NCBI GenBank assembly: GCA_900074885.1
Contig: FJUW01000074.1
Coordinates: 215,865-279,864, forward strand
Origin: Rhynchosporium graminicola
Taxonomy: Eukaryota > Ascomycota > Leotiomycetes > Helotiales > Ploettnerulaceae
DNA: 64,000 nt
Direction of reading: 5' to 3'
Shown here: positions 1,069 through 54,228 of the stretch, piece by piece
Layout: every line of letters starts with the position of its first letter
Numbering within the stretch: the stretch's first letter is position 1
The notes under the pieces: model-generated
What the model was told of the DNA's origin: nothing
Seen by the model: the letters and a program-made list of their open reading frames with translations, nothing else
Databases searched by the model: none
Made by a program: the position numbers and the translations under genes

Positions 1069-1645
1069 TTAACCGCAAGGTTGACCTGGGTGACCGCAGC
1101 GAGGTTCTGCCTCTGGGATGGCATCACGCAAAGCCAAACGATGGCCTGAATTTCCGCGTCGTGGCTCTGGCTCGGCAATAGTGAGGTGATCGGTTGATGA
1201 AGGGACATAGCAAGTGGCGCCTTCGATGAAACATTTGCAACCTTCTCCGCAGTGATCGTCGCTGCTGCAGACTTGAAGGGTCATGTTAGACTATTACGTG
1301 GTCATGAGGACGAAACACGTACCGCCGCCGCACAGTGCCCATTCTAGGGTGATACGATGATGAGATGATTGAACGACTGATGCTTCCTTGTGTGCAGTTG
1401 GAATGTAGCAGGTCTTTGATATCGGGAAGCATTTGCAGCCAGCGTCACAATCATTGTCGGTGCTGCAATCTTCGCTGTCTCCGGCTGTGTATAAATTTAG
1501 ATCGCGTGGGTAGTTTTATATATAAGAAGGACTTACATCCACAGGCCGCGAAGTGAAGGGTTGTACGGAAGTTGGCTGATTGCTTGCGGGGTGCAGCAGT
1601 CGCAAGAGCTAGGAAGAGAGCGAGAAGTGCTGTGGATGCTTTCAT
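1069..1645 (-). CDS. Small secreted cysteine-rich protein, tandem knottin-like modules
   Basis: Three exons on the minus strand (1645-1537, 1484-1323, 1271-1069) give 157 aa; the introns are 52 and 51 nt and both are phase 1. The protein starts with a signal peptide (MKASTALLALFLALATAAP). Two modules follow with identical spacing, C-x5-C-x3-C-x-C-x6-C: CSTDNDCDAGCKC...TCYIP and CSSDDHCGEGCKC...TCYVP. An extra Cys lies before each (AACG and LCGG), and each intron falls at the same place relative to its module, so the second module is an exon duplication. The spacing resembles squash-inhibitor-type cystine knots; that fold is inferred. The tail, rich in E, P and R, ends EAEPRCGHPGQPCG, close to the alpha-pheromone WCGRPGQPC that I recall for Botrytis/Sclerotinia. 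An apoplastic effector, an inhibitor or a pheromone-related precursor are all possible. The reading frame stays open across both splices, which supports the model. Confidence 0.72.
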
Positions 1646-11239: not shown

Positions 11240-12678
11240 CTAAAATCTAGCCTCGACCTTCTTCGCCACGTCCTGCAAAGCCCAAGCACTGCTTTTCGTC
11301 TTACTCCTGACACTTGTAGCCTGTGCCTCAGTGAATCCCTTCGCCTCAACCGCAGGGTTGTAACCCAACTTATTCCTCTTACCAACCTCGGCCGAGTCAA
11401 CTCTAGTGTTTGTCTTGCCATCAGCACGCTTGTATACAGTAACCACAACAGCACCGCCCAGACCAAGATTGTGTTGCAAAGCAACTCGCGTGTCGTCGAC
11501 AAGTCTGTTATTGGCCCATCCACGCAAATGCCAGACGAGCTCGGCGCACTGCGCGATACCAGAGGCACCAAGAGGGTGGCCCTTGGAGATAAGTCCGCCA
11601 GAGGGGTTGATGACGACCTTTCCACCGTATGTGATACCGCCACTGCGAACAAGCTCATGGGCTTTTCCAGGAGCGGATAGGCCGAGTGCATCAATGACGA
11701 TCATCTCATTTGCAGAGAAGCAGTCATGAAGTTCGCAGACCTTGACATCATCTGGAGTGACCTTCGCTTCCTCCATAGCGACCTTAACAGCATATTTCGT
11801 CATGTCGAAACCCATAAGATCGATAGCGGATCGACTGAACAGACTTGGGGAGTCGGTAGCGAGACATTGACCAGCAATCAGGACGGCCTGCTCCTTCAGA
11901 TGTGGACGTTGGTCGAGGAAATCCTGCGACACGAGAATGGCAGCGGCGCCTCCGTCGGAGGTTGGGCAGCATTGGAGCTTGGTGAGGGGTTCGTGGATCA
12001 TAGGTGCGTTCATGATTTGTTCCAGAGTGTATACGTCTTGAAATTGCGAGTATGGGTTTCGTTGGGAGTGCTCGTGGTTGACGCGGGCGATTTCGGCGAA
12101 GTCTGCGTTGGTGGCTCCGTATCTACGAGTTTATCAGTTAGTAAAAGCTCCATATTGCTGGATGGATTAAGAGGGGCAGCATACTTCTCCTTGTATTCCC
12201 GACCAGCATTTCCAAACATCTGTGCAGCTCCAGGAGCATTTGTAATACCACGAGTCTCCTTCATCATGTCTCCAGATGTGCCAGTTGGGTTGCTACGATC
12301 ATTCCAGAAGCTCTGCAGACTTCCCGGGTTCATCTTCTCGAATCCGACAACCATGATACAATCTGCACCGCCGTGGCTGATGACATTACGGGCAAGATGG
12401 ATTCCTGTCGAGCCGGTCGAGCAATTGTTGTTGACATTGTAGATTGGGATTTGGGTCATGCCGAATTGGTAGAATACTCGCTGTCCGCAGGTAGAGTCGC
12501 CGTAGCAGTAGCATGCAACTCCTTGGTCTACATCGTCGTAACTGATTTGGGCGTCTAGGAGAGCTTTTATACCGGCTTCGAATCCGAGCTCTGTATAATC
12601 AACTTTTCCTCTAGGCTTGATGAACTTGGTCATGCCCACGCCGAGGACGTAGCATGGCTCGTTACGCTTGATGACCAT
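11240..12678 (-). CDS. SCP-x type thiolase (peroxisomal 3-ketoacyl-CoA thiolase family)
   Basis: Two exons, 12678-12185 and 12122-11240, with a 62-nt intron in phase 2, give 458 aa. The start is MVIKRNEPCYVLGVGM; upstream in-frame codons contain no ATG. The nucleophile Cys is at residue 86 in VNNNCSTGSTG. The second half has CELHDCF, NPSGGLISKGHPLGASG and a C-terminal HNLGLGGAVVV, the signatures of the SCP2/SCP-x thiolase branch. The thiolase cleaves 3-oxoacyl-CoA to acetyl-CoA and a shortened acyl-CoA in peroxisomes. No sterol-carrier (SCP2) domain follows, as in fungal thiolase-only members. The C-terminus EARF is not a canonical SKL-type PTS1, so import may use a variant signal or a partner. 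Family call secure; substrate range not inferable. Confidence 0.93.
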
Positions 12679-15600
12679 ATTGGAGATGTGATGCAAGGGA
12701 GGCTTCTTGTATTGTGGTTTCACAGGCGATGTAGAGTGGCTGAGTGGAAAATTGATGTATTATAATCTGTCAACTGCGTACTGTATCACAAAGGGAACTG
12801 GATATTAATATATAGGACTGTACAAGTCCGACGACGTTATTATACACTTAGAGCTCCCTCCGCATGGAGGATCTCGATAGCCCCGGCTTTGGGAACGAAT
12901 GCGGGGGGCTAGCCGAACCGAGGCTGCGGGGTGATTCATGCTTTTACAACCAGTACCTATGACCAGGGGGATGGGCCCGATTATCCGGCTTGCATGTGCG
13001 ATTGTGATATGTTTCCCAACCTCACATAAGTTTTTACCTAGGTGTTGGTTTGAGATATGCATGAAATACTGTAGTTTGCGGCGATGATCTCTGATCAGCA
13101 AAGGTAAGTGCGGTTCTTGGAGCTCTCTGTGCACTTTGGCCGATGATCTGCCATGGTTAAACGGCACGTGATTACCTTCCCGGCATCTACGAATTCGAAG
13201 TGTAGACTACACAGTGTGTGGCAGAATTAAGCATAAATATCGACTAGATTCAAGGTTGCGGCCGGGCCCATTCGCTTAGTGTGGTCAAACTGCCAAAGTC
13301 AACCAATAACCCGCTTAAGCCCTCTCTGCCAACTCCGCTCTCTCCACCTTACTCGCAACTACTGAAGGCATCTCAACCATCAACTCTCCCTAAGTTGACT
13401 TCCAGCCATAAATTCTTAGCCCTGTATATTTTTTACAAATCGGGCTCACATTTAAACAGTGCTGGGCCTGCAGCATTCAGCAACACATCTATCTCAATTC
13501 TCAGCGCTTCTCTAACCTGACTCGTCAAACATCCTTCTTAGTAAACCTCGTCGAAGTCTAACTGGCAACATCTTCCCAATAACGCACGCCATTCTCTGCA
13601 AAATATTAGCCATATTCGTTTCATGTCGCTCTGCTGACCCTGGCTTGCATCGCGGCGAGAGCTGACTCTATGATTGAGAGATATAGCTTTACTAGATAAG
13701 AGATGTGGAAAGTTGGCCAGATTGTCTTGGAATGGTGTAAGGGCAGCGGTTGAAGTCGCGAGCCTTTCTCTAGGGTCATTCGAGTAATTTCATAGATCTG
13801 GTGAGAGCGAGTCGAGCCTCTGCCACGTCTTGTCACTCAAACAGTTGGCAGGCAGACGATGGCGGTTTGGATCTTTTCAGAAGATGGTGACAACACCGAT
13901 TGACCGCAAGGACTCTTGGAGCATTCATCTATGAACTCCGTATAAGCCGATGGCCAAGAAAATTCATGCAAATCCATACCATGAAACGCTAAAAGCTCTG
14001 TGACATTATCTCAATCACCATAAACCTTCCACCCCTCAATACATCCATCCCATGATCCAGCACTTTCGAGTTCCACAGTATATTGGCTCTACTGTTATGG
14101 ATCCAATATATCCCGTCTCCCCGATCAAAAATACATTTGAAGGCTGAAGCAGCTCCTAGATGACCAGAATGCAGCGACATACCCTCCTTTGTAACTTCTT
14201 TCACATCAAATTTTACGGATGCAGGGTGAAGAGTTCTTAAGTTCTGATATGTGGTTGAAAGTGCCCTTCCTTTCGACGAAGAGCGTATGAGACACGTGCT
14301 ATATTGTTCCCACAATGAATAGGTTCTGATGAAGAATGTGGAGGACATCCCTTCCGACATAGCCTGTCTGTAGATGGGATGTCAGACTTGACTCTTGTTA
14401 ATCTGTCTACATCTCGAAAACGTGGCCGCTTAGTTGCTCTAATCTGTTTCAAACGCGGAGATACTGCGATAGAAAAAACTCCAGCACAAGGGATAAGACT
14501 CTTCGGAGGCATCCTATAAATATAAGTGTTAATATTTGAGATTATGTCGAATTGCGCGATACTCGGAATATGTCTTTGTCAGAGCTGGTGCTAGGGACTA
14601 AAAACAAATTACTCCCTCCTTCAATCTCAAACGAGAAACTGGTGTCTTACGAATACGATCTGCGGGGTCATTTATCAATATGAAGTCAACAATAATGTCG
14701 GCACCTCACTATTAACTTTCCACAAATGTTAGCCTGCTTCTCGATAACGAGCGATACATGAACTCAGTCGCTCTTCGACACCTTTTGTTTTGTGTGGATT
14801 TGTTAAATCGAGACCGCATTTGGGCGAGTCTAGTTCAGTTCGCGGGAATGTCGACGCAAGCTATCGAGATCTTGAGCTTCGAAGGATTTATAAAGTCTTA
14901 TGATGCATCACGTAGCCAATCTTTTCAAAGTTTGTCTGGACCAAATTATGAACAGTATTCTTTATCCTCTTAAAAAATCGTCTGTAATCCTCGAAATCTT
15001 CGGACCTCGAGCCAAAAAACGAGTTTCGAAGATTGAGATCTCTCGTGGCCGATTCATTGCAGTAAAGATTTGCGAATAACCTCACAGCTCATCCCCTTAA
15101 CCACAAAAGCCTGCTTCTGAGTATGAAAAGCATGATTATCAAATTATCAACCTCGATGATGTTTATCTGCTTAGTGACTCTATTGGTGTCACTAAAAATT
15201 TAGCTATACTACTTCATTTGCCGATAATTCTAATGAAGATGGTCGTCGCTCTCTTCGTCTCTCTTCTGTCTGAATCGTCACAGTACCATATGCCTTATCC
15301 GCAGTGAGTATCACTCAAGCCATAGCATATTTAGAAATGGAGTTTCGAAGGGGTGAACACTCGGAGGCTCGTCGTCCCTGGGGATTCAAAGGTGGATCGA
15401 ATCGGTGTGGCGATATACTTCATACTCGACTTGACAACTTGATGTTGTTGATTATGTGGTACCCTTAGCCCAGGATGTAAGTCACGGCTGTTGTTATTCA
15501 TAGCTCCGTCGTTGTATAGTATTCCATATTGCATGTCTCATTCTCTTTCAATGTTTCGATTCACGAAGACTTCGCTGGGCAAGATCTAGAAACATGATAT

Positions 15601-16333
15601 CAAATAAATATCCAGAACATTCATGAAACGCAACATTCATCACGCTGTTCACCTTCAATGAACTTCAATACTGCGCTTTTATATTACTGCACAGGTAAGA
15701 AATGAAATAACGGGTACTATCAAGCCCACTCGGATATAAATTTAGGCTAAGACTGACTTCAACCCTCACAAACACGAAAGTTCCCATGCTGTTTAGTAAA
15801 TGTCGGTAAACAATAATACAACAAGTAATTTATTACCAGATAGAATGAATTTAATGAGACTACAGAGCTTTAAAGAGAATCTATGTCAATATCTCCTAAT
15901 ACCACAGCCTCGCTCCTCGTTTCGACCTTATCTTCCGAGTACAGGAGAGGTCCTGAAATCAGCACCCATATTTCACGAGAGAGAAACGCATCTGTGTGGA
16001 AATATCAAAATAATCGTAAGATATACGCTGCCAAACTAGCTTCAGTGTCTGTTTGCTAGCGGTGATAGAATCAGTAGTACACCAAGCAATATAACCGCAA
16101 TTAGTGCCAAGAGTCCTAATTGGCTAATTCACTTGCATTCTCAATCCTGCCTAGTTCTCGCCGTCTCGAAGGAGAGGTTTAACTAGCCTCGAGTACAAGA
16201 CTCCATATCCTCAATCTCATCAACCAGTTCCTAAACGCCCGATGTTTCCTATTCTAATTCTTCATTTCGAATATTCTCAAGAGTCAAATCATGATTTGAC
16301 ACATGCCTTTCCCACATGTACTTATCCCTAATG
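12679..16333. other. Long intergenic stretch with weak open frames
   Basis: No gene can be supported in 3.6 kb. On the minus strand, frames at 14512-14401 (MPPKSLIPCAGVFSIAVS) and 14360-13989 could be joined by short introns, but each choice gives a different unrecognised product of 55-150 aa. Plus frames at 13281, 14758 and 15800 look random. Base composition drifts towards AT after 14.9 kb. Confidence 0.45.
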
Positions 16334-18401
16334 CTACTTCTGCCATTTCCACACTCTACCGTGCTGCACAGGCGTATCAAAGATCTTCCCAGGGTTCATA
16401 AGCCAGTGCGGATCAAGTGCTTGTTTGATACTCTTCATCACGCCAAGTGTGTCAGAACCAACTTCTTGGAGGAGTTCTGCTTTTCTAAAGAGGCCGATTG
16501 AATGCTCGCCCTGGAATTACATGTCAGCTTAATTATACAACCCAAACCCACCTCAGGTACCATACAAACCAAGAAACTGGAATGCTTTATGGAAGAATGT
16601 TTGAGAAGCATGAGGAAAACGGGAAAGAGATGGACGGTATGCGAGGGTTAAAGGCAAGGGGAAAGGCGGACGTACGCTAGAAGTCCCTTCCATCTCCAGA
16701 GCTTTCGTAATCATATTCTTAACATGTGTATCAACAGCTGCTGTTTCCTGGGCGTCTTCACTATGAAACATGATAGCTTCGTGAAAATTTCCGTCCCCGA
16801 GATGGCCCACGACCGAGGAAAAGAGACCGAGTTCCCTGCGGCCTTTTTCTGACTCCTCTATCACACATAGAGGTCAGCATCTTCCTATCGCTTACTTGTG
16901 GAGATCAAGAAATGGAAGTGCAAGAGGAAAGGGTGAGACAAGGGAAAACTTCCTACCGATTATATCCGCGAGCCTACTGACAGGCACAGCGATGTCCGTC
17001 GTCCACAAGCTAGTACCCTCCGGTCTTGCAGCCAATAAACTCCACAGCGCCTGTTTCCTGCCACTCCAGATAAGATCTTGCTCTTTCTGATCCTTCGCGA
17101 ACTGGAATCCACTACCATTATTTCTCTTAGAAATAGCCTGAATCTCTTTGATATTATCAGCAATACTCCCCTTCGTGCCGGAGAATTTGAAAAACAGCGT
17201 CGGAGCTTTTTCCCACACTTTCGGCGCAGTGTGGCCTTGTTCGTTAAGAACTTCCATCATCTTCTCATCCAAAAATTCGAGTGCTGCTACTGGAACACCG
17301 GCTCGCATCACTGCTGTAGCCGTCGCAGCTGCGTCGCGAACGGAAGGGAAGGTCACGACTCCTACGTTGAATTCTTTAGGCACAGCTGCCAGCTTCAACG
17401 TAATCTCCGTAACCAGACCCAGCGTCCCTTCACTCCCCACAAACAGACTATTAAGATTATACCCCGCCGCACTCTTCCTACTCCTTCCCCTTCCTTTTGT
17501 CTTGATAATCTGTCCATCAGCAAGTACAACTGTCATATTCAACACCCAATCTTTCATCGTCCCGTATCGCACCGCATTCGTCCCGCTACAATTCGTTCCG
17601 ACCATACCCCCGATCTGGGCGCTGGGACTTGGATCTACCGGAAAAAACAATTTACTGTCTTTGATCTGAGTATTGAGGTCAACCCAGTTACAAGAAGGCT
17701 GGACGACGATATCCATGTCATCTTCATGGAAAGCGACAATTTTATTCATATGTTTGAAATCGATGCTTAGCCCGCCGTGGGGAGCGGAGAAATTCCCTTC
17801 TAGCGAAGAGCCGCCGGAGAAAGCTGTCATGGGGACTTTGTATTTATGGCATATTGTCGCCAAGGTTGATACTTCAGCTGTTGATTTTGGGTAGACGACT
17901 GCGATTGGCAGACTATCGATATTTGAAGGCGACCATTCAGAGAATCCATGGAACCTCAGATCTTCTGCATCTGTACTGATGCTTTCTGTTCCTAAAGCTT
18001 CTGAGATCTCGTTGATGGCCTGTCACGTGGTTAGATAAAGTGTTGATAGTGGAGGGTTTGGCAGAAAAGGAGCGTCATCGAAGTACCTTCTCCATATCCT
18101 TCACATTTCCATACCTTGGCACCTTAAATTTATCATCTCGCGCATAATCAATATTTAACTGTTGTGCTTTCTGGTACGCTCGTCCTGTCACCCATGCTAG
18201 ACCGAAACCTGCTCCGAAAGCGAGGCCGGTGAGAGGGCCACGTCCTTGGAAGCCGCTTCCTACGGAGCTATTCGATGATGACTTTGAGGAGGAAGATTTG
18301 TAAGGTTTCGATTCGAATGTGCTTTTACATCGTTTGGTGGTTGGGGTTTTGACGCATGCTGCTATGTTGCGGAGCGTACGTGCTCGCGTTATGTGGGACA
18401 T
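16334..18401 (-). CDS. DLD1: D-lactate dehydrogenase (cytochrome), mitochondrial
   Basis: Four exons (18401-18087, 18019-16957, 16857-16676, 16510-16334) with introns of 67, 99 and 165 nt give 578 aa, against 587 for yeast Dld1. The N-terminus is an Arg-rich presequence (MSHITRARTLRNIAACVK), then a Ser-rich stretch and one membrane helix (LTGLAFGAGFGLAWVTG), as expected for an inner-membrane flavoprotein. The FAD-binding PCMH fold covers about residues 140-320 (PIAVVYPKSTAEVS, TAFSGGSSLEGN, IGGMVGTNCSGTNAVRYG, GSEGTLGLVTEITLKL). The C-terminal cap holds VGHLGDGNFH and GEHSIGLFRKAELL, ending NPGKIFD. It oxidises D-lactate to pyruvate and passes electrons to cytochrome c. Every splice keeps phase (0, 1, 0). 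Confidence 0.94.
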
Positions 18402-19382
18402 TTTCAAGTGGTTGACATGTAGTTGAATGTAAAGCTTTTAGTGAGATTAGTTGATTTCAGGAAGCCGAGGACGTAATGGTCCTTGCTGACATGCGCGTAG
18501 ATTGCATGGCTGCGTTGTTTTAGTGCATGAGGTCGGAACGAGCTGTCTTCGCTTGAAACCTAAACGAGTCGGAGCCGAGAGTAACGAAATAAGCGAAACA
18601 ACTGCGGACGTCTGGAATGATTTTTGATTTTACGGTCATTGATTTGATATCTCCGCGTCCAATAAACTTCCCAAAGTTCAATCCTCGATGATATCCTGAT
18701 TGATTCAAGTAACATCCAAGAAAACTTGCTGATGGTTCCTCTTGTGACTTCCAAAATACCAAATAAACCTTCCCCTAATGAGCCTAGACCTGCTCGAAAT
18801 GTCAGAAAGCAGAACGGTAACAGCTTGTCCTTTTTGCTCTCGAATCTTTTCCTTGAACTTCATAGATCTTCATTTGCCTGACACCTAATTCACCTGAGGA
18901 CGTTTACGCTAGGATCCTGATTATCGAGAAATTTGAAGTTTCGCCACGCGAGACTCTAATGCAGTTCTTCGTTGGCTCGAATCACAGATCTCGCATTCAC
19001 GAACTAGAGACGGGAAGACTTCAATGCTGTGAAATTGTTTTAGGATATGGTTGGAAAACGTATCGAAATGTGACGAAGGTCGTGGTTGTTTCTAAAGGGG
19101 ACACTGATACTTTGTGTGAAAAGAAAGAATGCCATCATTGGTGACACAATGAATTGTTCTTGTTAAAGGAGTAGCAGTACCAAAGAGTACCTCATCTCAA
19201 TCGCCGGACGCGGATTCTGACCGCGCTAAATGATATCTCTACAGCACTCCACTCCCACACCTTCGGTCTGGTCGAGCGGAAGGAAGAAACATCGTTCAAG
19301 AGTTTGCGCACGATGAGCCTTTGCATTGGGATTATAACGTAACAGATTTAGTTTATCGTTAGCTGAACTAACAAGAAGGGTA
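18402..19382. other. Intergenic, nothing recognised
   Basis: This lies upstream of the D-lactate dehydrogenase gene and downstream of the PP2C gene. A minus frame at 18762-18520 is open for 80 codons but has no protein pattern. No other feature is seen. Confidence 0.5.
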
Positions 19383-21363
19383 TCATAGTTTAGCCTTTGG
19401 CTCGACTGCTGAGGCGCTGGCTTCCTTGTTTACCACAACGTCGCCGCTTTTGTCGCCATTGCCGAAGAATATGACTTCAACTGTCAAATCGTCGCTATGA
19501 CTCTTGTTAGCATGCATGTTTACTTAGTGGAATTTCGCATACTCTGTGACAGGAGTCAAGGGAGAACATACCGATACCTCCTCGAATACGGAGCTGGCAG
19601 CGTCAACAACGCACAAACCATATCCTTATCTTTTCCACCCAACGCGTTCCTCACAAGATGCGTGGCAACATTCTTGTCTTGTACAACGAACCTCTCCGTT
19701 TCCTTCGCTGTAACACCCCACTGTCTCTGTCTCACCGGTGTCTTCTGTCCTTCTTCATTCATACCCTCTCTCTTCTGCTCCTTCCCATCCTTTGTATACT
19801 CAACAGGCAACCCTTTTTGTTGTGTCGAGAACATCTTGGCCCATGAGCTCCCACCACCATTGGAGTCATTAGATTGCTTCTCGATCCACTGCCCGACCAA
19901 TCCGACAACTTCTTCGTTAGTGAGCATCTCCCATAATCCATCTGTGGCCAGTACCACGAAATCGCCTTTGGAAGGTTCAATTTTGGTAGATGTTACGACT
20001 GGCTCGGCGGTTACGTAGGGTGGGGTACGGAGGAGTTGTGATGGTGTACGACCGAAGAAGGATTGCTTTAGACGTTCAGACACTTCGCGGGACCATTTAT
20101 ACGTAGCGTCCCCGAAAGCCCTTGAAGGTTCCAAGCCTCCTAGCACGCGGCCATTGCGAATAACATTTGGCTCGCCTGGGTGCTCTTTACGCATCCGTGC
20201 TTCTTCGTCAGGATTGCTTCCCGTTTGATCAACCGATAGAGGTGTTGCAACCCATTTGCCTGAGTCTCCTCGTCGTCCCAGAACGGCACGCGAATCGCCA
20301 GTACAGGCTACATGTAGAAGTTTGGTGTTGGTGTCGTAGAAAGAGAGGAGAGCACAAGAGCCAGAGAGGGCTGGGGCGAGTAGCTCAGCAGCGATGGGTT
20401 TCGAGTTTGATTTTAGAACCTTTTGGACGGATTCGTGAACGATTTCGTGGTCGAGTCGATTGAATCCTGTTTTCATAGCCGCTTGTATAGCATCGATTGA
20501 CGGCGAGTCCACTGCTGGGTCAGAGAGTGTGGCTTTGTATGTGGAATTCAATTCGCGGGCGACGAAGGATATTAGGACTTGTCGAAGTTTGGCGGATGTT
20601 GTCCAGCCACTATTGTTGTTAGACTGTCCAATTGAGTCGAGAATGAGACTTACGAGTGGCCGTCAAAAACTCCCCAGAACATCCAATCACTAGACTCATT
20701 CTCCGCAGCTGTGGCAGTGGCCAGAGCTTGGGGCAACTCAATTATCTTTTCTACATGATCGTCCTCGATCGGATCATTGCTGGGTATTTGCACCACATCA
20801 TATCTCAAAACTCCTTTTCCCCTCCCTACGAAATAACTCTCCTCATTCCTCCGTAACTTCTGCGTCGCTTGATCCGGATTCAACATCTCCAGCACTTTCC
20901 TGCCTGATTCATCTGTATCCTTGGATATTGGTTCGTTGCCAGTGATAGACCCCGTGTACAGATTATCCGCACCAACAATCACAGCCTTCCTCCCCCAATC
21001 CTCGGTGCTAGCCGCAGCCGGAGCGTAAAGTGTAGACGAAGTAGTGAAGTCTCGAGACTGTTGTGTTTGAGCGCTAGATTGATCGCCAGCTTGAAGTTTG
21101 TATGTATACCAAGCTCCGTAACCAACCAAGCTAGAAACCAAAGCGACCGTAAATCTGCGGGTATACATTGATGGCGCTCCTTTCGAGACAGGTAGGTTGG
21201 CTGAAGATTTGGGCTTCGTGCTCGGATTTGCTCGTCCTGAAGAGTGTCGAATACCTAGAGCATAGCTTGAGGATTGGAAGGCTGAGCTGCGTGCTCGCAG
21301 AGAGATGCTGCTTCTAGGTACCAGGCGTGCGGTCCGGAATGCCCTTAGCGCTGCTCGACGCAT
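19383..21363 (-). CDS. PTC5: Mitochondrial PP2C phosphatase, pyruvate dehydrogenase phosphatase type
   Basis: Three exons (21363-20654, 20609-19572, 19494-19383), introns 44 and 77 nt, 619 aa. The N-terminus is a mitochondrial presequence (MRRAALRAFRTARLVPRSS) with a membrane helix at about 70-90 (FTVALVSSLVGYGAWYTYK). The PP2C motifs appear in order: MFWGVFDGHSGW (metal-binding Asp, split by intron 1), LHVACTGDSRAVLG, LGGLEPSRAFGDATYKW, DFVVLATDGLWEM and, across intron 2, RDDLTVEVIFFG. All metal-binding Asp residues are present, so it should be active. The long insert before the last motif and the GW after DGHS point to the Ptc5/PDP branch, which dephosphorylates the E1-alpha subunit of pyruvate dehydrogenase. 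The 44-nt intron is near the minimum for fungi. Ptc6 or Ptc7 is less likely. Confidence 0.88.
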
Positions 21364-21900
21364 TTGATTGTGGTTCTGGCTGCTCAGTGAAGTCAGAGGG
21401 TGACCGTGTTATTCTGAAAGTCTATCTAGGATAAATCGCGATCGAGGCCGAGGTCGTCAAATCTACGCTAGGCGACGTTAGATTGAAGATGTAAAGTTGA
21501 GGCTGGTGAATTGAGGGAAAAATACATACGGGAAGTATTGTGAGGGTATAGGAGATTTGATTGAGTATCATTCCATCGTGGGCAATTGATAAAAGAGCGA
21601 AGAGCCAGAATCAAATAAAATGAAACTACTTCTTGGGCGACTTTGTCTATTTGTCGTGCTTAATACCGACACTACTGCTGTCTTGTCTTGAAGCCTCACA
21701 TCCCTTTCTGGCCAGGGCGCACGATCCTGCCGGATTTCTGCCGATGAATGCGTCATTGGCCGGGAGCCACAAAGTCCGTTTCTGAACCTTCTACACTTAA
21801 TCAATTTTCGAATTGTAATAAATTTTTGAATATCGGAATGTACAACTAATGTCACCGGCACTTCTCTTCGACCTATTCCTACAAACGAAATACCTCCAAC
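21364..21900. promoter_or_regulatory. Shared divergent promoter region
   Basis: These 537 bp separate the divergent start codons of the PP2C gene (minus) and the TCF25/Rqc1 gene (plus). No clear TATA box is seen towards either gene, as is common for fungal housekeeping genes. Confidence 0.5.
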
Positions 21901-24303
21901 ATGTCCAGTAGACAACTACGGAAGCTGCAACAGCAGCGGGAACTCAAGCAGGCGCAACTCCAAATCCACGTAGAGGGGGGAGATTCCGAGGACGAGCCAG
22001 TCGCACCCACAAAAGCAAAGCCCAGCCTCTTCGCCAACCTTGCAGCACTCGAAGACGACAATGAAAACGACGAAGACGAGGAAGAGGATGAGAGGGAAGA
22101 TATCCCTGAGCCAGTAGAGACAATTACCCCACCTTCCACAGCTACGAAAGCGAAGAAATCGAAGAAGAAAAAGAAGAAAGCCAAGAAGGCGAAGGATGAA
22201 CCTGCAGAGAAAGAAGATGTCGACGATATCGATGCGGCGCTCCGTGATTTGGCGCTCAAGAAGCCGGCGGGGGGTGAACAGGTAGAGAGGAGGCTGACGG
22301 TCGATCCGGAGTATGAGAGAGTCTGCACGTTACTTGGGATCAATACGCAGCACTTGAAAGTAGCAAATGAGATGCGGAATCTGTTTGGGAAGGCTGCTAT
22401 AGAAGTTGTGGATGAGCCTGGTGGACGTGCAGGAAGAAGAGCCAGACCGCGGGGTCAGAACCAGCAAGTTGATTTGGAGACAGCTCTGAAGGGACAACAT
22501 CAACCTGGAAAGGGATTGTCGGAACTTACATTACGGAGAAATCTCTTCATTCAAGGAAAGGATGACTGGCCCAAAGCTACCACGGGTGGATTGACAATGG
22601 CTGTCGTTGATGATAAAACGGATGATGGGACTGTGGAATTCCGATATGTGCACGACAAGGCATATCAGGCTCTACAGCAGACTTTCCAAGGGTTTGTAGA
22701 GATGGGAGATCCTCAGAATTTGATTGGACTTTTGACACGGAGTCGTAAGTCTACCACTCTCTTTGTGAAAGGCCACCGCTAACACTATCTAGCATACCAC
22801 ATCTCCCTCCTCATTCAAGTCAGCAAAATTGCTAAAGATCAATCGGACCACGCCCTCTCAGCCGACCTCCTCGAACGCGCGCTCTTCAGTTTCGGTCGTG
22901 CCGCCACAACCCTCTTCCACGCTAAGCTCGCCCAAGGAAAAGCACGACTCGATTTTGCGCGACCAGAAAACAGAGAATTATGGCTCGCAGCTTATCAATA
23001 TATCAAATCCCTCCTCCAAAAAGGAACCTACCGCACCGCTCTCGAATGGGCGAAACTAATCCTGTCTCTGGACCCGGAAGAAGATCCCTACTGCATGCGT
23101 CTCCTAATTCACCAACTTGCCTTGAAAGCACGGGAATTCAATTGGCTGCTCGATGTCTCTGAATCTGAGATCCCCGAGATCTGGGCACCATCCCACCTAG
23201 GAAAATGCCACGCAGCATCGCACACCACTCCCTCCCTCGCTTTCGCCGCATTGCAACTCAAAGAGAGCGTACAATGCCGAAAGCTGCTTACAGATTCGAT
23301 GCAAAACCTTCCATGGCTTTTTACGCACCTCTTCAAAGAACTTGATCTCGATGCTCCACCCAGCATTTGGGGAATTATGCCACGCACAGATGCCGAATCC
23401 CTCTTCACAGAACTCTACGTCGTGCAGACAAAAGATCTATGGAATACACCTGAAGCTACTGCCCTGTTGATGGAAATCGCACACACGATACCGAAAGTCA
23501 ACGCTGATTCTATCCCTAAACTCGAAAATGCAGAAATGACACTCGATGTTGTGCGATTCGTTTATTTGGACAATACGCCTGCCATCATGGCCCTTGCGCC
23601 AAGCCAGTTGCTGCATAGGAGTAACAACTCGGACGCCGATCCTTTACCGCCCGATGTTAACGTGTATTCTTACGAATCCCAACGTAGCACTATTGAAGGC
23701 CGGTCTCATACTCGCGGTTCTGAAGGGCTGGGAGGCGATTTCTTCAATCCCCTGGCTGCTTTGAGAGCTATGATACCCGGCTTTCCACGAGGTTCAGATG
23801 ACGACGATCATGATGTCAACATCGAAGATTTCCCTGAAGCAATGAGGATGGAAATAGAAGCTGCAATCGCGAACGGCGTTATCCCACCTGAAGGCGTCCC
23901 ATTCCCTATTCGTGGAGGTGTACCTAGAGAGCTCAGAAGGCTGCAGGATGGGTATGTATCGGGTGAGAGCACGGAAGAGGATTACGATGATCAGGATGAA
24001 GCCAGTGATGCGGAGCCAGCGGATAGTATTGGAGGGGATTATTCACATGTGGAAGTCAGTTACGCCAGGAGACTTTTGAATATGCTTTGGGGAGGCGGTG
24101 GCAATGCCGCGAACGCTGCGAATGGCGCTGGAGCGGAGGAGAATGAGAATACAGATACAGATGAAGATATGCCGCCCTTAGGAGAGGTGAACCGAGTGGG
24201 TATGGTGGGTAGCTTAGGGAGCGTACATCCTGACACTTTACCTGCTGAGTTGAGACCAGAGTCTAGTGATGACGAAGATGAGGAATTGCCGGATCTGGTA
24301 TGA
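21901..24303 (+). CDS. RQC1: TCF25/Rqc1 family, ribosome quality control factor
   Basis: Two exons, 21901-22744 and 22793-24303, with a 48-nt phase-1 intron containing a GCTAACAC branch site, give 784 aa. The start MSSRQLRKLQQQRE is the conserved family opening. An acidic tract (about 55-72) and a Lys-rich tract (AKKSKKKKKKAKKAK, about 83-97) follow, then the conserved core from RRLTVDPEYERVC through FQGFVEMGDPQNLIGLL, YHISLLIQVSKIAKDQ and the helical-repeat part (FSFGRAATTLFH, LDPEEDPYCMRLLIHQLALKA). The C-terminus is acidic (DDEDEELPDLV). The yeast protein is a subunit of the complex that marks stalled 60S nascent chains with Ltn1 and Cdc48. Family call secure; the function is by orthology. 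Confidence 0.93.
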
Positions 24304-35398: not shown

Positions 35399-38300
35399 TT
35401 ACTCCCCCCTCTGAAAAAAGCTCGCCCTCGAGCGTTAGTCTATTTCCTTATTACTATTAAGGTAATCGTAATTATTAATTCTATCGTAGAAAGCTTTTAG
35501 CTAATTAAGTAGTTTAGCGGGAGGTCTAGCTTATGTTAAGTTATTAAGGTGGAATTATTATAGCTTAGTAAGAGCGTATTTAACGTTTATAGCGTTATAC
35601 TATATAAGATCGACGTCTTAATTTAACTAGGAAACTCGGTATAAGAGGCTATTACGCTGCTTATAGTATGTAAGTATATCTTCGATCTCCTATTTATTAT
35701 TACTAGTGATATTAATAAGTAGTAGCAGTAGTAAGGTTTATCCTAGTAAGGGGTCGTTTAGATACTTCTATAGCTTAGTAGTAGGGAATACGTTATATAC
35801 TTTTATACTAGTAGGGAGCTCTAGATAATAAGAGCTTCTGATCTTTTTAATTATATAGAAGAGTCCGTTAGTTAGGAAGTCGAGTTTTTTACTAAGTCGA
35901 GTACTCGTAAAGTAGTATATATCTAGCTAGATAAGATCGTCTATAGTAAAGTCGACTTTATAGTATAAGCGATTATAGAATTAGGATATCTTAGCTTATA
36001 TACGTTAGAAGCTTAATTAAGTAGTAGTCTAAGTATCGCGCAGACGATTAGCGTAATCTAGAGCTTACTAAGTATTTAACTTATTAATAAGCGTAATAGA
36101 GTTAGATAAGTCTTTCTAATTCTAATTAACGCGGGATATATATCTATAAATAATTTCAAAGGGTAAGAGACCTCTAAGGGATTCGTAAGGGAGAGTTATC
36201 TAGGCGTAATCTATAATAAGTAAGAATTCTAACTAGTTATCTTAATAGTAAGAGATAAAAGGTTATAATCTACGTTAGAGATATTAGTTATAGATCTCTA
36301 TTTAGCTATCTATTTATAAGTAGTCTACTGCAGAAAGCTATCTTTTAGTGCTAAGAATCGTAATAACTATAGTCTAAAAACAGGAAATGAATTAAGGCCC
36401 TCTATCAGAGGTAATAATCAATAGAGCTCCGAAATAGTAGTATATATAATATAAGTAAAGCTTTATAAGATCGCGCGTATTAGAGGTCTTTCGGTATAGA
36501 ATACTAATTACTTATTTATTAAAATAGTTAATAAATACGAGAACGTTATCGTAGCTATATTTATCGTAGTTAAAGCTATAGTAGTCGATTATAATATACT
36601 CCTATAGACGTGATAGTACGGGCAGAGGTTAGAGAAGGCTCGGTTTCTTATCGTATAGTACTTAAATTCGTCGGTAAGTATAATAGTTATAATAGTACTA
36701 GTTAATAGTTAAAGCGATTCCGTACTACTAGTATTATAATACTAGTAGTTATAAGGTCTTCTTTATACTTAGATAAGTAGTCTCTAATTAGTCGTATACT
36801 TCGCGTATAAGTAGTATACGAAAGTATAAAATATTAGGTACGATTAGTCTTTCTTTATAGAGTAGAAGATCTTTTTCTATAGTTAGTTTTCTAGGAGTAG
36901 TAGAGAGAGCTTATTTCCGTAATACTTAGAGTAATAGCATAATATAATTAGCGTTAAGTACTTACTATACTATAGAAAAGACTAGCGATAAGTCGGCGAC
37001 TTCTAAGGTGTTAATAAGCTTAAAGTTATCTATAGAGTCAAAGCTATTCCAGAGGTTACTTATAAGTAGTACTAGATCGATTTAGTCTTCGCGTAGTAGC
37101 TACTATAAACGCTAAGTTCTTTTAGCGTTATTCTAGTCGTCTAATTTATCTGTTCTGCGAGAGAGAGCGTTAGTAAGTAGATTATACTTCCTAGGTCGAT
37201 AAGTAATTATAAAGTTATAATCTGCGAGTAGCTAAGCATATTAAGCTTATTATGCGTTTAGCTATTTAGAGGTTATAAAGTACTTAAGAGCTTTATAATT
37301 AGTAATAACGCGGATCTGATATAGTATACCTACGAGCTCAGATCTCTAGTTACTAAAAGATCATATAATTATAAGCATTTCCTTATCGTAGATAGAGTAA
37401 TTAAGCTCGGTAAGTAGTATAGTCTTAGAGAAGTAAGCTACTAGGAACTAGTTTTCGTTATACTATTACGATAGTATACCTGCTATTACTTTATTACTAG
37501 CGTCTATTTCGATAATATAAGATAGATATTACTAATAGTAATAGAGGAGTAGTACCGAAGTAAGAGCGTACTTTAAGTGATTAAAGGTATCTTTACACTC
37601 CCTAGCGAACCGAAATAATACGTTATTTTTAGTAAGTTATATAAGAGGTTTTACAATAATTCTATAGTCTTTAATGAATTATTAGTAGAAGTTATAAAAG
37701 CTTAAGAATAATTATATGCCCTTAACTATAGTTAGGTAATTCTAAGATTATATAATATTAACTTTCTTAGGGTCTACCTCGATCCTAGAAGTAGAGATAA
37801 TAAATCTAAGGTATTTAGTACGAGTAACGTTGAATTTATACTTCTTAAGGTCAGCTTATAATCTAGCGTCTTATAATTATTATAGTACCTTATGTACGTG
37901 TAATTAATACTATAGTAAGTCGTTAGAGTAGATCAGAATATTATCTAGATATACTATATAGAAGTCGTCTAAGTAATCGAATAAGATATTATTTATATAT
38001 CGCTAGTATATCGCAGGGCTATTAGTCAGACCGAAAGGGAGTACCTTATACTTATATACACTATAACAGGTCCGGAAGGTTATATACTCTTTAGAGGCTA
38101 GATCTATTCGAATTCAGTAGAACGCCTAGCGAATATCTAGTTTAGTGAATATCTTAGTAGTAGAGATTCTAGCTAGCGTTTTATCGATTAATAGTAGTAG
38201 ATATTAATCCTTCCTCGTGAGGTTATTAAGTGCGCGAAAGTTAATATAGAATCTTAGACTTCTATTAGCTTTCTTAATAAAAAGAATAAGTATAGCGTAT

Positions 38301-41300
38301 AGTACTTAAGAAGGTTTAATAAAACCTTTAGCTAAGTTATTAGTAATATACGCCTTAATAACTTTAAGTTCTTTAGCCGATATCTTATATAAGAGGGAGT
38401 ATTTAAAGCTCTTCTTAGCTCTTTCCTTAAGCTTAATTCGGTAATCGTATAAGCGATAAAAAGGGAGAATATCGCTAGCTTCCTTAGAAAAGACGTATAC
38501 ATATTAGCTATACTCGTAAGGGATCTATAGTTCTAAATCTAATTCGCTTAAGCTAATAGTAAATTATTAAGCGGTTTTACGATGTTCCGTAAGGTCGATA
38601 GTTAAAGATATAATAGTAGTATTATATTACTAAACTATAATTCGGTTATTAAGAAGCTTATCTATCTCATAAAGGGTAGTAGAGAAGATCTTATCGTTAG
38701 AAGACTTCTAGCGTTTATATAAGAGATAGAAAGCTAAGCTGCTAATTATATAAATCTCTAGCGTAAGAGGCTCTAGAAGAGGTCTAAGTATACGAGGTGA
38801 TCTTAGTCGCTTCCGAAATATCGTAATAGTTATATTTATACTTTAAGTAGCTTCTATTAAGTCGCGAGATAGTGTTCCGAGTAACTATTAATCTATAGTA
38901 TGAATTGCACGAGTATAGTCTTATATGTAAGTCTTTAATATAGAGACTTCTAATTAGAGTTAAAATAGAGATTCACGCGGGATATAAGCGATAATATCGC
39001 TAAATCGTACGTACTTCGGCCGTATATTAGTAGCTTCTCTAGAGTATAAAGACTTCTCTTTACTACTTTATTCTTATTCTTCAGATAATAAACACTTAGG
39101 CTTATTATATCTATAATAAGTAGTATAAACGCCGGAGAAATAGTCCTAACTAATCGGCAGTAGTAATAGAGGGTTAGTTACTTATAGAATACTCTCTAGG
39201 GGAGAGTTTTAGATATTTTTATAGCTATAAGTCTCCCTAGAAGTACGCTTCCGAGCTAGTAATAGTCGTTTAATAATAGAGATAGAGTTAATAATAGCTC
39301 GAATATTAATAAGAGAGTTAGTTGCGCTTCGCTGTTCCTCGTACGCTTCTCAGAACTAATTAAGGCGTTCGTTTCGTTTGTTAGCGTTATGTTAATAGCG
39401 CTAGTAAGTATAGTATTTATATAAGTCCTTAATCTCGATCGGAGAGCTATAAACGTTACTAGGAGGAGTATATAGTAGCTAAATAATCTATTGTTTAGAA
39501 GTATCTAAGAGTACTTGATATTCCGAAAGCTAGGCTCTTCCGAGTATAATACTATAGTTTCTGAGAGTAGTAATAAGAAAGGGAGTAAATGCCTAAACAC
39601 GACGATCTACTATTAAATTAAGTATCGTATAGTAACTAATAGTACTACTATTAATACTATTAAAGTCTTTAATAAGAATTACATTTAGTAGAAGGTAAAT
39701 TAAAGGTTTTAAGAAAAAGGAAAGAGATTTAAGAAAAGAACGATTAATAAAATAGTATTTATTAGCTTCAGAATCGAGAAGTGCGAGTAGCTTATATAAG
39801 AGTCTATTCTTAGTAAGAGTAGCACGTATAGTAAACGATTAACTACTAAGAAGCTTCGTAAGGTTAAGATATTGTATATCTCGTATACTACTTAAGAAGG
39901 AGTCTTTCCTTAAGCGTAGTCTTTTACTAGCGGTTTAATATACTCCTAGGCGTTATTATACGTTTCTTTATTATTATTATCTTCTGACTCGCTATTAACG
40001 TCGTTATTAGTATTAATTATATTAATTCGATACGGAGTATTAGGTCGAGCTAACGATAAGCGTAAGTATAAAGTAAGCGTAAAGTAATAAGGAGTATTCG
40101 CTAGTAATTATGCATAAGGCGTATCGTTTCGTATAAAGTATAATACTTATTTACTAGTCGCACTAGTATTCTTAGGCGTAGGAAGACTAATTTGCGGATA
40201 AGAAGAGGAGTTAGTATTATGGCGCTAAGAGGAGGTATTTATAGGGCGTTCTTAAGTCGCGCTAGCTTTAGCTGAAGACTCGGAATAATAAGTTTTTTTA
40301 ATGAATTAACCTTAGTCTTTAGCTTATATAGCCTTAACGTATTCTTCTAGTGTCCTTGACGTTTGGTATTATTAGAAGAACTATTTCCGTAGCTATATAG
40401 GTAGCTTCTCTTATAAGTCTATTTTCAGAGTTAATTAATTATTTACTTTAGCTTTACGAGCTAGTGTACGAAACTTATAAAAGAATGTCTAGAAGGTCTA
40501 CTTATAATCTATCTTTAGCGCGGAGTAGCTAGCTCTTACAGTTTATTAGTCGTATAGATTAGATAAGAAGGAGACGAGTTAAGTGATTATATTAAGTGAA
40601 TTAATTATACTGCCTTCTTTATTATATTCTAGTTCTAAGAATAAGAGTTCTAGGTAGGTTCTAGCTATTCTTTCTATTTAGTTAAGTAACTAATCTTTAT
40701 AGTGATCTTTATTAATAAAGTAGCTAGAGTAGCGCTAGAGAGCGTTACGTATCTGCACTTCCTAGAGTTTTAGAGAGTAATCGATTCTATTAGAGAGCTT
40801 ATTTAGAAGGTTTAGTATCTTCTCTATACGCGTAGCGTATAATATTAATAATATTCCTCTAGTAGATTATTCTCGACGACGATTATTAGGCGTAGGAGTA
40901 GCGTTATCTTCTTTAATTAATAGTAGTAGTATTATACGCGATTAAACGTTATTAAATAATATAGACTTAGTAAAGCGCTAAGCAGTTAACTAGTATAGTT
41001 CTAGGAACTCGTCTTATAACTAATATAGTTCTGCAGATAAGTCAGCGTTTAATTATCTCTCTTCCGCGAGCTTCCTTTCTGCTTCTTATAGCTAGTAAGC
41101 GCGGTTTTCCTATAAGTTACTTATAGTTACTATTAATATAGGGGTATTATTAGGGAGGTTTAGGGACTTAGTAAGTTCGTTAATTATAGTAGGAGTTAGG
41201 GAGCTTAACTCGGACGAGGCGTTGTCGCGAGTACTATTTACTATAGAGAGAGGTAGGTTATAGCGAGTATTACGAGTCGCTGAAGAATAAGAGGTAGAGG

Positions 41301-41492
41301 GAGTCGGAGAACTAGTAGTCGATTTATCGGACTTAGGTTACTTCGGTTTAGGTGCTATTCTTTAAGTTTATACTTAGTATAGGCCTTCTCTGTATAGTAT
41401 AATCTCCTACGTTTAGTAGCTCTAAGTATAGAGGTATAATATAAGTAGATATTTACTATTTTCCTAGATATAAGTAAAAGAGTTATAGATAA

Positions 41493-41727
41493 TATAACAC
41501 TTACTCTAGAAAGGTCTTAAAACTATATAAGTAATAAGATCTTATATTATTATAAATATAAAGTAATAAGAATTACTTAAGAATCTATAACTAAGGAGTA
41601 AAGAAGTAGAGAGAGAAGGGAAGTATATATATGAAAAGGGGCCCCTAAACTCTACTCGTGTAATCTCGCTTAGTAGTAAGTGTTTCTACTAATAGGGAGA
41701 AACCTCTAAACCTGACCAGCCGTCATA
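41493..41727 (-). repeat. E2 right LTR (5' LTR)
   Basis: 235 bp, TATAACACTTAC to GCCGTCATA on the plus strand; followed by the TTTAC duplication. Confidence 0.92.
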
Positions 41728-41732
41728 TTTAC

Positions 41733-42870
41733 TTAACATTAGCCTAAATAGTTATAATAGCTTAAAGCGGAGAATCCTCTACTACGTTAATCCGACTTAT
41801 ACTCTAAGATAACTCTATTAGGGCCTAGATAATACTTAGCGATATACTAGTAGATAACCTTTTAGTTCTATAAGAGAAACTCCGATCGCTAAAGAAATAG
41901 AATAATATCCTAAATAATCTTATAGTTAAGTACTTACGAATATTCAGCGAAGACCTTATTTAATACCCTCCGGAAGTTACTATAAGAGTACGACTTTACT
42001 AAGCTTATATATCTGAAGACCTTACCCTAAGTATAGAGAGAGATACTAGTCGATTAGTAGCTCCTAAAGAATCGCTAATTCCTCGCTAGGATAAAGGTAA
42101 ATATATAATTCTACTGGAATACTAGGGCAGGAGCTAAAGAGAGCTTACTAAGTACTTATAGGCTTATAACTAAGTCTTCGATTATAATGCTAAAGGGTAT
42201 CTAACTGATCTCGTTAAGATTAAATAAGTAATAATATTATTTCGTAAGGAACTAGCGAACGCTTAGGAAAGGTTTAGGAAATATACCTTAGATACCTTTT
42301 ACGAGATAACCTAGGAAAGTTATAAAGAGTTCTTAGTGAATCTCTAGCTACTTCTTATCTTACGAAGGGTAGCTAACTTATAGGCTCACGAGAATACTTA
42401 CTAAAGGCTAGGTTAATTAATTAGAGAGTTTATAAATTACTTTAAAGAAAAAGAGGAATAACTCGAACCCTTTACTAAGCGCTAATTACGAGATATCTTA
42501 TTTAATAAGATCCGCTTAGAGATTCGCTAGAAAATCGTCGAGAATAGCTAAGCTAATAGACTTTAGACTTAAGACTAAGTTATTTCTACTATTACTTTTT
42601 AAGAGACTTATATCTTATCTAGAGATACTAATAGTAATAAAAGATAAAAGGAACTTAAAGAGTAGAAATATACGGAGTTAAACGCGAAGAAGGACGACTC
42701 GTATAAGTATTAGTAAAGAACTGATAATCGATAAGATAAGAGCTAATAAAGATAAGAAGAGAGGAAAGATCTAAATAGTATACTTATTAGGGATTAGCTA
42801 ATAAGACGGGATATCTCTAAGGTTTAGTGCTACTCTTATAACGAATATAGATATATCTCTCTGAACTATC
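41733..42870 (+). pseudogene. E1 gag relic
   Basis: Stop-ridden plus-strand frame after the E2 insertion. At 42828-42869 it reads CYSYNEYRYISLNY, which is a CCHC zinc knuckle with its second Cys, Gly-His and last Cys changed by C-to-T and G-to-A mutation. Confidence 0.75.
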
Positions 42871-42989
42871 TAAAATTAAATACTAGTAATACTAAAGATA
42901 AACGCTAAGGAAAGCTATAACTCGTAGTATCTTCTATATTCGGACCGGGTTTACCGGATAATAAGATAGAAATCTAAATAAAGATTCTA

Positions 42990-44569
42990 TCTTAAGGTAA
43001 GTAGAAATCGATAACTACCCTTATTAATAGTAGAATAGAAGATAACTTTATATTAAGACTAGTTACTAAAGAATACGAGCTTGAACTTACTAGCGAAGAA
43101 CTGAGGACTTTCTAGATACTTTCATAGAATAAAAGCGTTATCTTTAGTACTATAGTCGCCTAGGTAGAGATAGCTGATTCGATTAGATAGACTAGAGTCG
43201 ATACTCTTCGGCTAAGAGTTATTAATATACTAGGTATAGACCTAATATTAGAGTAGCTATAGTTAGAGGATATAGATCCTTAGATAAGCTTTAAGAATAA
43301 GTAGTAGAGGTTCCCTTATAATTTAAAGGACTCTAATAGCCTTAATATTATAGTACCTCGAGCTTTTACGACTCTTATTAACGAAGAGAAATCTCCTATA
43401 TACGCTATAATACTTAACTTACGTATAATACACTAGATAAATACTAGCGATACGCTTACTATTCCCTCTGTATATAGTAACTTTGAGGATATATTCTCTA
43501 AGGAGAAAGGAAGCGAGCTACCCCTATTAGAGGGCTATTAATACGCTATCGAGTTAGAACTAGGATTAAAGATATTTTATTCTCTAATCTATAACCTCTC
43601 TAAGAAGGAACTAGAGGTTCTTCGGGAATACCTCGACTTATTAGAGGCGAAAAGTTAGATAAGAAAGAGTAAGAGTCCTATAGGTATACTTATTCTTTTT
43701 ATACTTAAGAAAGATAGTAGCCTTCGATTATATATTAATTACTAGGCTCTAAATAAAATTATAATTAAGGATTAGTACTTTCTGCTATTAATTAGCGAAA
43801 CGCTAGATAAGCTCCGGGATACTAGAGTATTTACTAAACTAGACTTATAAAACGCTTACTACTATGTCCGAATTCGCTAGGGTAATGAATAGAAAACTGT
43901 ATTTCGTACCCGATATAAGTATTATAAGTATTAAGTTATATTATTTAGATTATTAAACGTACTAGCGACTTTCTAGGTATTTATTAATAATACGCTAGTA
44001 GGCCTCGTTGATATTACTTATATTATATATCTTAATAATATCCTGATCTATTCTACTAACTTATTATAATATGAATAATACGTCTACTAAGTACTAGAGA
44101 GACTTTAGTATATAAACCTCTTTATTAAGTTATTAAAATACTCCTTTAATACTAAAAGTATAAAGTTTCTAGGATATATTATCTCCTTAGCTAGCGTTTT
44201 AATAGATATAAGCCGGATAGATACTATTAGGGAATAGCTAGAGCTTGAAAGTATTAGAGATATATAAGTCTTTATCGGTTTTATAAACTTCTACTAGCGA
44301 TTTATTATAAGGTTCTTAGCGATTACTTAACTTCTAATAAGTTTAATAAGAAGTAAGAAGAAAGGGTAACTTACTCTTACTTTTAGATAGAGTACTATAG
44401 AAAGGGAGGCTTTTAACGCGTTAAAAGATACGTTTACTATAGTACCTTTTCTTATGCACTTCGATCCACTGAAGCCGAGAAAGCTAGAGACTAATACTTC
44501 TAGGTTTACTATCGCGGGAATTCTCTCCTAGCCTAGAGAGTAGCTAGCGAAAGAAAGGGAAAAGGCTAT
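42990..44569 (+). pseudogene. E1 pol relic: protease, RT, start of RNase H
   Basis: Protease relic LINSRIEDNFI near 43010-43055 (catalytic Asp changed to Asn). RT relics: FTKLDL...NAYYYVRIR about 43835-43880, FINNTLVGLVDIT about 43980-44015, active-site block YLNNILIYS about 44028-44055 (one Asp of the YLDD pair mutated). RNase H begins before the E3 insertion at 44575. Confidence 0.85.
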
Positions 44570-44574
44570 CTAGT

Positions 44575-44842
44575 TATAACGACACAAGACTCAAGGCGGT
44601 ATACAAGCAAGAATAAACAAGTAGGGAGGCTAAGAGCGATCTTATATAGTCTACTACGAAAGAAACAAAAAGATAAGGAAGGAAGAAGAAGAGAGATAGA
44701 GTGTAAAGCACCTTATATATATATACTAGTACTAGTCCGATACTATACCGGGTCGGATACTAGTTCTGCCGGGATACTTATGAACTTAGGCCCTATTATC
44801 TATCCTTCTTCTTATATGATATTCAGGTAAGCTATTGTTATA
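44575..44842 (-). repeat. E3 left LTR (3' LTR)
   Basis: 268 bp; same length as the right copy. Contains a TA microsatellite (CTTATATATATATAC). Its first ~105 bp are shared with the LTRs of E4. Confidence 0.92.
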
Positions 44843-45339
44843 TTACCCTCCCCCTAAGAAGAGTTTAACCCTAAGCTCGGAAAGTTATAGTTTATACTAG
44901 AATTAGTCTTTATTATAATTATTTTTATTGATATTCGCGTAATAAGCGCTAGCCGCTCTTTAGTAGTAGTAAATTCTTTATCAGGTTCTAACTAGTTATA
45001 TCGCTATAATAGTACTATATTAGTTGTAGCTTCTAAATCGGGCGGTAAGTAGTATTTACTTTATCTATTTATAGTAAGAGTCGAGTTTAAGTAAGGCGTA
45101 GGGTATATAAAAGAAGAGGTTTATTAATATTAGAGCCTTTCCTTTTTAACCGCGATAACTACTTTAACTTATAAGTTTATTCTCCTTAGACTATGATATA
45201 GCTCCTAGAGTAAGTATTATTACTAACTACTATAGTAGTCTACTATAATCTTATATATTAATCGATCTAATTAACTCTTCTCTTAATATAAGTAAGTTTC
45301 CTATCTTAGTCTTAAGGATAGTCCTTAAGTATAGTATAA

Positions 45340-46340: not shown

Positions 46341-46419
46341 TAATAAATTCTAATACTAATAACTATAATAGCTTATTATCCTCTAAGTAATTATAATTAT
46401 CTATTCTGTCTTCCTAAGC

Positions 46420-51586: not shown

Positions 51587-51854
51587 TATAATAACATAAG
51601 ACTTAAGGCGGTATATAAGTAAGAATAAACAAGTAGGGAGGCTAAGAGCGATCTTATATAGTTTATTACGAAGGAAATAAAAAGATAAGGAAAGAAGAAG
51701 AAAAGAGATAAAGTATAAAGCACCTTATATATATATACTAGTACTAGTCCGATACTATACCGGGTCGAATACTAGTTCTACCGGGATACCTATAAACTTA
51801 GGCCCTATTATCTATCCTTCTTCTCATATGATATTCAGGTGAGCTGTCGTCATA
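51587..51854 (-). repeat. E3 right LTR (5' LTR)
   Basis: 268 bp, TATAATAACATAAG to GTCGTCATA, followed by the TSD CTAGT. Confidence 0.92.
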
Positions 51855-51859
51855 CTAGT

Positions 51860-52011: not shown

Positions 52012-52016
52012 AGTAA

Positions 52017-54223: not shown

Positions 54224-54228
54224 AGTAA

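Follow-up and report, generated by a model that had tools for sequence, protein, structure and literature searches.

An alpha-pheromone unit, almost certainly derived from the species' own pheromone gene, at the C-terminus of a knottin-like protein of Rhynchosporium graminicola

A small minus-strand gene of Rhynchosporium graminicola, a fungus causing leaf scald on cereals, ends in a peptide resembling an ascomycete alpha-pheromone, which raises the question of where this tail came from and whether it may still be delivered as a pheromone. The analysed stretch of DNA is 64 kb long (referred to as the window), and RLALRDAIPEAEPRCGHPGQPCG followed by a stop is the minus-strand reading of its positions 1069-1140. 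The features of the gene are presented in Table 1.

Table 1. Features of the knottin-like gene and its pheromone tail. All were located on the minus strand of the window.
Feature	Position in the window	Strand	Remarks
Whole gene	1645-1069	minus	three exons, product of 157 aa
Exon 1	1537-1645	minus	start codon at 1645; signal-peptide-like N-terminus (MKASTALLALFLALATAAP...); first Cys of module 1
Intron 1	1485-1536	minus	52 nt, GT..AG, phase 1; 2 residues past the first Cys of module 1
Exon 2	1323-1484	minus	162 nt, a multiple of 3; remainder of module 1 and first Cys of module 2
Intron 2	1272-1322	minus	51 nt, GT..CTAAC..AG, phase 1; 3 residues past the first Cys of module 2
Exon 3	1069-1271	minus	remainder of module 2, linker, pheromone tail, stop
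Knottin-like module 1	1408-1543	minus	C-x7-C-x5-C-x3-C-x1-C-x6-C; contains intron 1
Knottin-like module 2	1210-1332	minus	C-x3-C-x5-C-x3-C-x1-C-x6-C; contains intron 2
EPEP spacer remnant	1162-1173	minus	beginning of the detectable pheromone-gene homology (blastn and register comparison)
Decayed pheromone unit RRGNSGHRLALR	1126-1161	minus	in register with RCGHPGQPCGKR
Dipeptide spacer DA-IP-EA-EP	1102-1125	minus	native counterpart e.g. DA-IP-EP-EA
Intact alpha-pheromone RCGHPGQPCG	1072-1101	minus	reported as a repeat (PMC10569646)
Stop codon	1069-1071	minus	immediately behind the last pheromone residue

The open frame 1069-1284 was not the gene: exon 3 covers 1069-1271 and the start codon lies at 1645. 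The position of intron 2 within module 2 is about the same as that of intron 1 within module 1. The N-terminus of the product contains a hydrophobic stretch up to ATAAP (judged by eye), and the tail-bearing protein is probably secreted. One RK, at residue 20, is located directly behind this signal-like start, and the sole KR or RR of the protein is the RR at residues 128-129, 28 residues away from the C-terminus. The window has an ordinary gene neighbourhood at 11240-24303 and 63074-63994. About 20 kb at 36001-56000 were AT-rich (GC 0.30-0.33), the next 4 kb had a GC of 0.38 and the remainder 0.40-0.50. The AT-rich block looks like repeat-rich DNA, and there is no open frame of at least 200 aa from 33013 to 61123. 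There were 16 long open frames; Pfam searches with 10 of them resulted in matches for five (thiolase, FAD-linked oxidase, PP2C, TCF25 and DUF7703).

The knot-like six-cysteine spacing was present in both modules (7-5-3-1-6 and 3-5-3-1-6), which shared 38% identity with each other (E 6.2e-4). No third such module and no further tail were found in the genome with a 67-aa query (10 matches, 9 candidates scored), which matched modules 1 and 2 and the pheromone gene described below and nothing else. With exon 2 as the query, cystine-knot peptides made up 11 of the 12 chains with an E of at most 10; the best E was 0.24, which is not significant. Module 2 alone as a query gave no sequence match, exon 3 gave one unrelated weak match to a ribosomal protein (E 0.52), and no Pfam family was matched by exons 2 and 3 up to E 10. 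The AlphaFold model was poor, with a mean pLDDT of 47.4 and its best region around module 1. Foldseek with this poor model gave 28 matches up to E 10, none of them at E 0.001 or better; EETI-II was superimposed with an rmsd of 1.0 over 24 columns at a non-significant E of 1.1, and a DCC-Draxin complex chain and scytovirin, both fitting at an rmsd of 12.6, were ranked above it. The squash-type inhibitor cystine knots, EETI-II and its kin, have the core spacing C-x5-C-x3-C-x1-C in common with the carrier modules. Unlike those inhibitors, loop 1 of the carrier lacks the Lys/Arg of trypsin inhibitors. The idea of a knottin precursor ending in a pheromone-like peptide was correct for the arrangement, but the modules can be called knottin-like by cysteine spacing and weak likeness only, and the PDB fold matches are hints.

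The 24-base pattern coding CG-x-PGQPC was found with zero mismatches at 9 places in the 55.3-Mb genome (121 contigs). Eight of these were in a single alpha-pheromone gene on contig C60 and one was in the knottin-like gene, while the reversed control pattern had 0 places in the whole genome. Within the 64-kb window, with up to 3 mismatches allowed, one match (0 mismatches) was obtained versus a mean of 0.09 expected, and at least one match occurred in 8 of 100 shuffles. The looser pattern C-G-x-x-G-Q-x-C listed 22 places without a mismatch, the 9 above and 13 others, and with one mismatch 359 places in all versus 255 for the control.

The search for the true pheromone gene in the same genome, suggested by an earlier note on this DNA, was successful. 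The gene on C60 (L009:4433-5035) encodes a precursor of 200 aa, in which RCGHPGQPCG occurs 8 times with spacers like KRDAIPEPEA. The reported likeness of the C-terminus to C-G-x-P-G-Q-P-C was therefore confirmed as a full match to the species' own RCGHPGQPCG, which fits completely and is the right comparator instead of the Botrytis-type WCGRPGQPC. The leading Arg, regarded earlier as an anomaly in place of Trp, is the native residue: RCGHPGQPCG is the sequence of all 8 precursor units. The decay of a Trp-type pheromone was thereby ruled out. By eye, the 200-aa precursor was without the middle and end stretches of the Diplocarpon and Mollisia precursors.

When aligned with a native spacer and unit, RDAIPEAEPRCGHPGQPCG was identical in 17 of 19 residues (89%), and two such matches shared the best E in the genome, 2.5e-4. 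The proposed comparison of the tail with ascomycete pheromone precursors also resulted in a link: with the pheromone precursor as a query, the tail protein of R. secalis was retrieved from the protein collection at E 2.8e-3. That search gave 25 matches among the best 7996 candidates scored, of which 24 were precursor-type proteins and the 25th was the R. secalis tail protein. Units starting with RCG were seen by eye in 13 of the 24 precursor-type proteins listed, some of which are fragments, and RCGHPGQPCG units in 2 of them, one from Diplocarpon rosae. RCGHPGQPCG is reported as a repeat in 7 of 14 species of Ploettnerulaceae, Drepanopezizaceae and Mollisiaceae (PMC10569646). The XA/XP dipeptide spacer given there as a mark of such units is present ahead of the unit, and the EA/EP-type spacer recognized earlier was confirmed as DA-IP-EA-EP. 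The precursor-type repeat number of two or more was not reached, the tail having one intact and one decayed unit, and a KR, RR or KK site behind the intact unit was absent, with the stop codon instead. The Lys-Arg ahead of the native spacer is replaced by Leu-Arg in the tail. In the C60 precursor, too, the second native unit has just one Arg behind it (CGRDAIP).

The DNA likeness to the pheromone gene spanned positions 1073-1173 of the window in blastn with short words. As short words were needed, and a 107-base query of tail DNA had no match beyond itself in the whole genome, this likeness is modest. EPEPRRGNSGHRLAL precedes RDAIPE and shares its frame and register with the native EPEARCGHPGQPCGK. 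The decayed unit was identical to the native one at 29 of 45 nt. None of 3000 dinucleotide shuffles and none of 3000 codon-order shuffles came as close, and 1 of 9822 window stretches did. Since the decayed stretch is in frame and in register, the tail consists of two tandem pheromone units, the first of which is decayed. The RR at 1156-1161 was created by a Cys-to-Arg change in this unit. The homology noticed at 1069-1140 was real but drawn too short, extending over about 1069-1173 with the second, decayed unit included. It is the upstream unit at 1126-1161 that can be termed a "decayed copy"; the unit flagged earlier is intact. The tail almost certainly descends from the species' own pheromone gene and, judged by its sequence, is a gene fusion of two tandem pheromone units with a knottin-like gene. 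Past the stop of the native pheromone gene, at L009:5036-5150 on C60, repeat remnants (PCGKRNAIPEP..) were observed in another frame.

The closest relative, R. secalis RSE6_05112, had an equal length, 155 of 157 identical residues and an identical tail. An assembly artefact is unlikely, as this record encodes the same protein. Oculimacula yallundae VTL71DRAFT_11221 (128 aa) showed 67% identity over 27% of the 157-aa query, in module 2. It shares a signal-like start and one module with the tail protein; in contrast, it has no pheromone tail, and module 1 has no counterpart in the alignment. No relatives of the carrier beyond these two were found in the protein collection at E up to 1 (196 candidates) or up to 10 (476 candidates). 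Relatives keeping the knottin part without the tail had been named as evidence against a pheromone link. This was the case in one of the two relatives, Oculimacula, but the descent from the pheromone gene stands: due to the precursor's own spacer and repeat register in the tail, the difference is read as a gained tail and not as chance. The tail was probably gained in the Rhynchosporium line, or else lost in Oculimacula. At about residues 84-108, VTL71DRAFT_11221 has another six-cysteine stretch (FCSGSCEHFTDCHWRCTCSWRKEC) in the place of the pheromone tail, and the 3' part of the gene may therefore change quickly.

When compared with the 8 native units one by one, the intact unit differed silently in 5-8 of 10 codons and non-silently in none; in the decayed unit, 7 of 10 codons were non-silent against each. 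The minimal number of changes relative to the pooled native codons was at least 11 in 36 nt for the decayed unit and 2 in 30, both silent, for the intact one. If the intact unit had changed at the rate of the decayed one, its peptide would have survived with a P of 0.0016-0.0027. With 5 changes in 30 taken as an intermediate rate, P was 0.027-0.035, and with the minimum of 2 in 30 the peptide survived in 23-25% of trials. It is likely but not proven that selection keeps the intact unit unchanged. The units may differ in age, or the donor unit may have been decayed already before the fusion, since the native gene carries a broken repeat beyond its own stop; gene conversion with the native pheromone gene is another possible reason. 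The conservation of the tail in a single close species, R. secalis, says little.

The tail could also be a recent neutral extension, derived from the pheromone gene and not yet decayed, on knottins that are functional themselves. The tail-less Oculimacula relative, the decayed upstream unit and the lost KR ahead of the spacer are consistent with this, as are the as few as two certain private changes on the intact unit, which luck would explain with a P of 0.23-0.25. However, the intact unit is perfect although its neighbour has at least 11 changes, the stop falls exactly at the pheromone end, and the R. secalis tail is identical. A neutral extension is possible, if on the unlikely side.

For the preferred reading, a chimeric gene supplying the species' own alpha-pheromone under the control of the knottin gene, the chances are about even. 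A small double-knottin gene would have gained two tandem units of the own alpha-pheromone at its 3' end, one of which decayed and one of which still specifies the mature pheromone residue for residue, directly followed by a stop. The preprotein would enter the secretory route, where a Kex2-type protease would cleave at the sole RR, which separates the knottin part from the tail, behind the LR before DAIPEAEP, or at both. A Ste13-type dipeptidyl peptidase would then strip DA-IP-EA-EP and free RCGHPGQPCG; trimming by Kex1 would be unnecessary, because the stop falls directly behind the last pheromone residue. The candidate peptide forms are RCGHPGQPCG, DAIPEAEPRCGHPGQPCG and the 28-residue peptide after RR. 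The freed RCGHPGQPCG would act on the fungus's own Ste2, and the pheromone output would be governed by the knottin gene instead of the pheromone gene. We infer the secretion, cleavage, receptor action and separate regulation of the tail protein.

The release of an active pheromone from the knottin-like precursor is plausible, with the balance at or slightly below even. Its weak point would be the LR instead of KR ahead of the spacer, Leu-Arg being a poorer Kex2 site than Lys-Arg. A cut at the RR alone would leave an 18-residue N-terminal extension, which is not obviously cleared by dipeptidyl peptidases. In the genome, a STE2 match (G000:C46:654394-655290, L020) spanned the whole profile and contained one in-frame TGA, for which an intron would be the simplest explanation. 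The P_proprotein (P-domain convertase) match covered 58 of 86 positions with one stop inside, DPPIV_N had three matches, and a MAT alpha-box match was detected. R. commune UK7 and the R. secalis isolate are both reported as MAT1-1, and KEX1 as missing only from the R. secalis genome (PMC5118889).

An untrimmed tail might instead stay on the knottin, N-terminally blocked, and bind Ste2 via its free C-terminus as a decoy or antagonist. In yeast, signalling depends on the N-terminal part of alpha-factor and binding on its C-terminal part, and the Glu-Ala-extended form is weak. The C-terminus of the tail is free and exact, and the KR ahead of the spacer is lost. The RR between knottin and tail argues for cutting, and a decoy seems quite improbable.

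A host-directed role of the tail in a small secreted cysteine-rich protein is very improbable. The genus is a cereal pathogen, the protein is knottin-like with a signal-like start, and the Fusarium oxysporum alpha-pheromone precursor has been reported as necessary for full virulence (PMC10057649). Against it, exons 2 and 3 are without a Pfam family, and PMC5118889, which describes the Rhynchosporium genome, does not contain the locus prefix RSE6 in its main text. A chance likeness of the tail was ruled out by the genome pattern counts, the protein match and the shuffles, and chance or convergence is scarcely credible, since the motif is short but the identical decapeptide, the precursor-specific spacer, the decayed unit in register and the donor in the same genome stand against it.

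The tail protein has the signal-like start, the RCGHPGQPCG unit and the XA/XP spacer in common with the alpha-factor precursors described from Leotiomycetes, which are Kex2-processed repeat proteins. Unlike these, it has one intact unit only, no adjacent KR, and two knottin-like modules ahead. By eye, none of the 24 precursor-type proteins listed, some of them fragments, had a knottin-like module. The precursors of ustiloxin-type peptides (dikaritins) are reported to be likewise cut by Kex2-type proteases (PMC7329392). A dikaritin cluster was rejected, as 0 of the 31 UstYa matches in the genome were located on the gene's contig, C103. No report of a pheromone-knottin fusion was found in the open-licence literature; the core CGHPGQPC was found only in PMC10569646, with neither "knottin" nor "fusion" in its available main text. 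The pheromone unit on a foreign carrier is a new variation on the dedicated repeat precursors.

The sexual cycle of Rhynchosporium has not been shown, yet most genes for it are reported to be kept and transcribed (PMC5118889). Autocrine pheromone signalling reportedly directs germination, hyphal fusion and aggregation in Fusarium oxysporum, where MAT1-1 is also reported to increase virulence (PMC13097639). A working second source of alpha-pheromone in R. graminicola, with one pre-trimmed, Kex1-independent pheromone per knottin carrier under its own promoter and the fungus signalling to itself, is unlikely; if true, the second source would perhaps be expressed during in-plant growth and in both mating types. 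The known sources of alpha-pheromones are dedicated repeat precursors, and here the signal would have escaped its own gene and regulation, which makes the tail protein a testable case of pheromone repurposing in Rhynchosporium.
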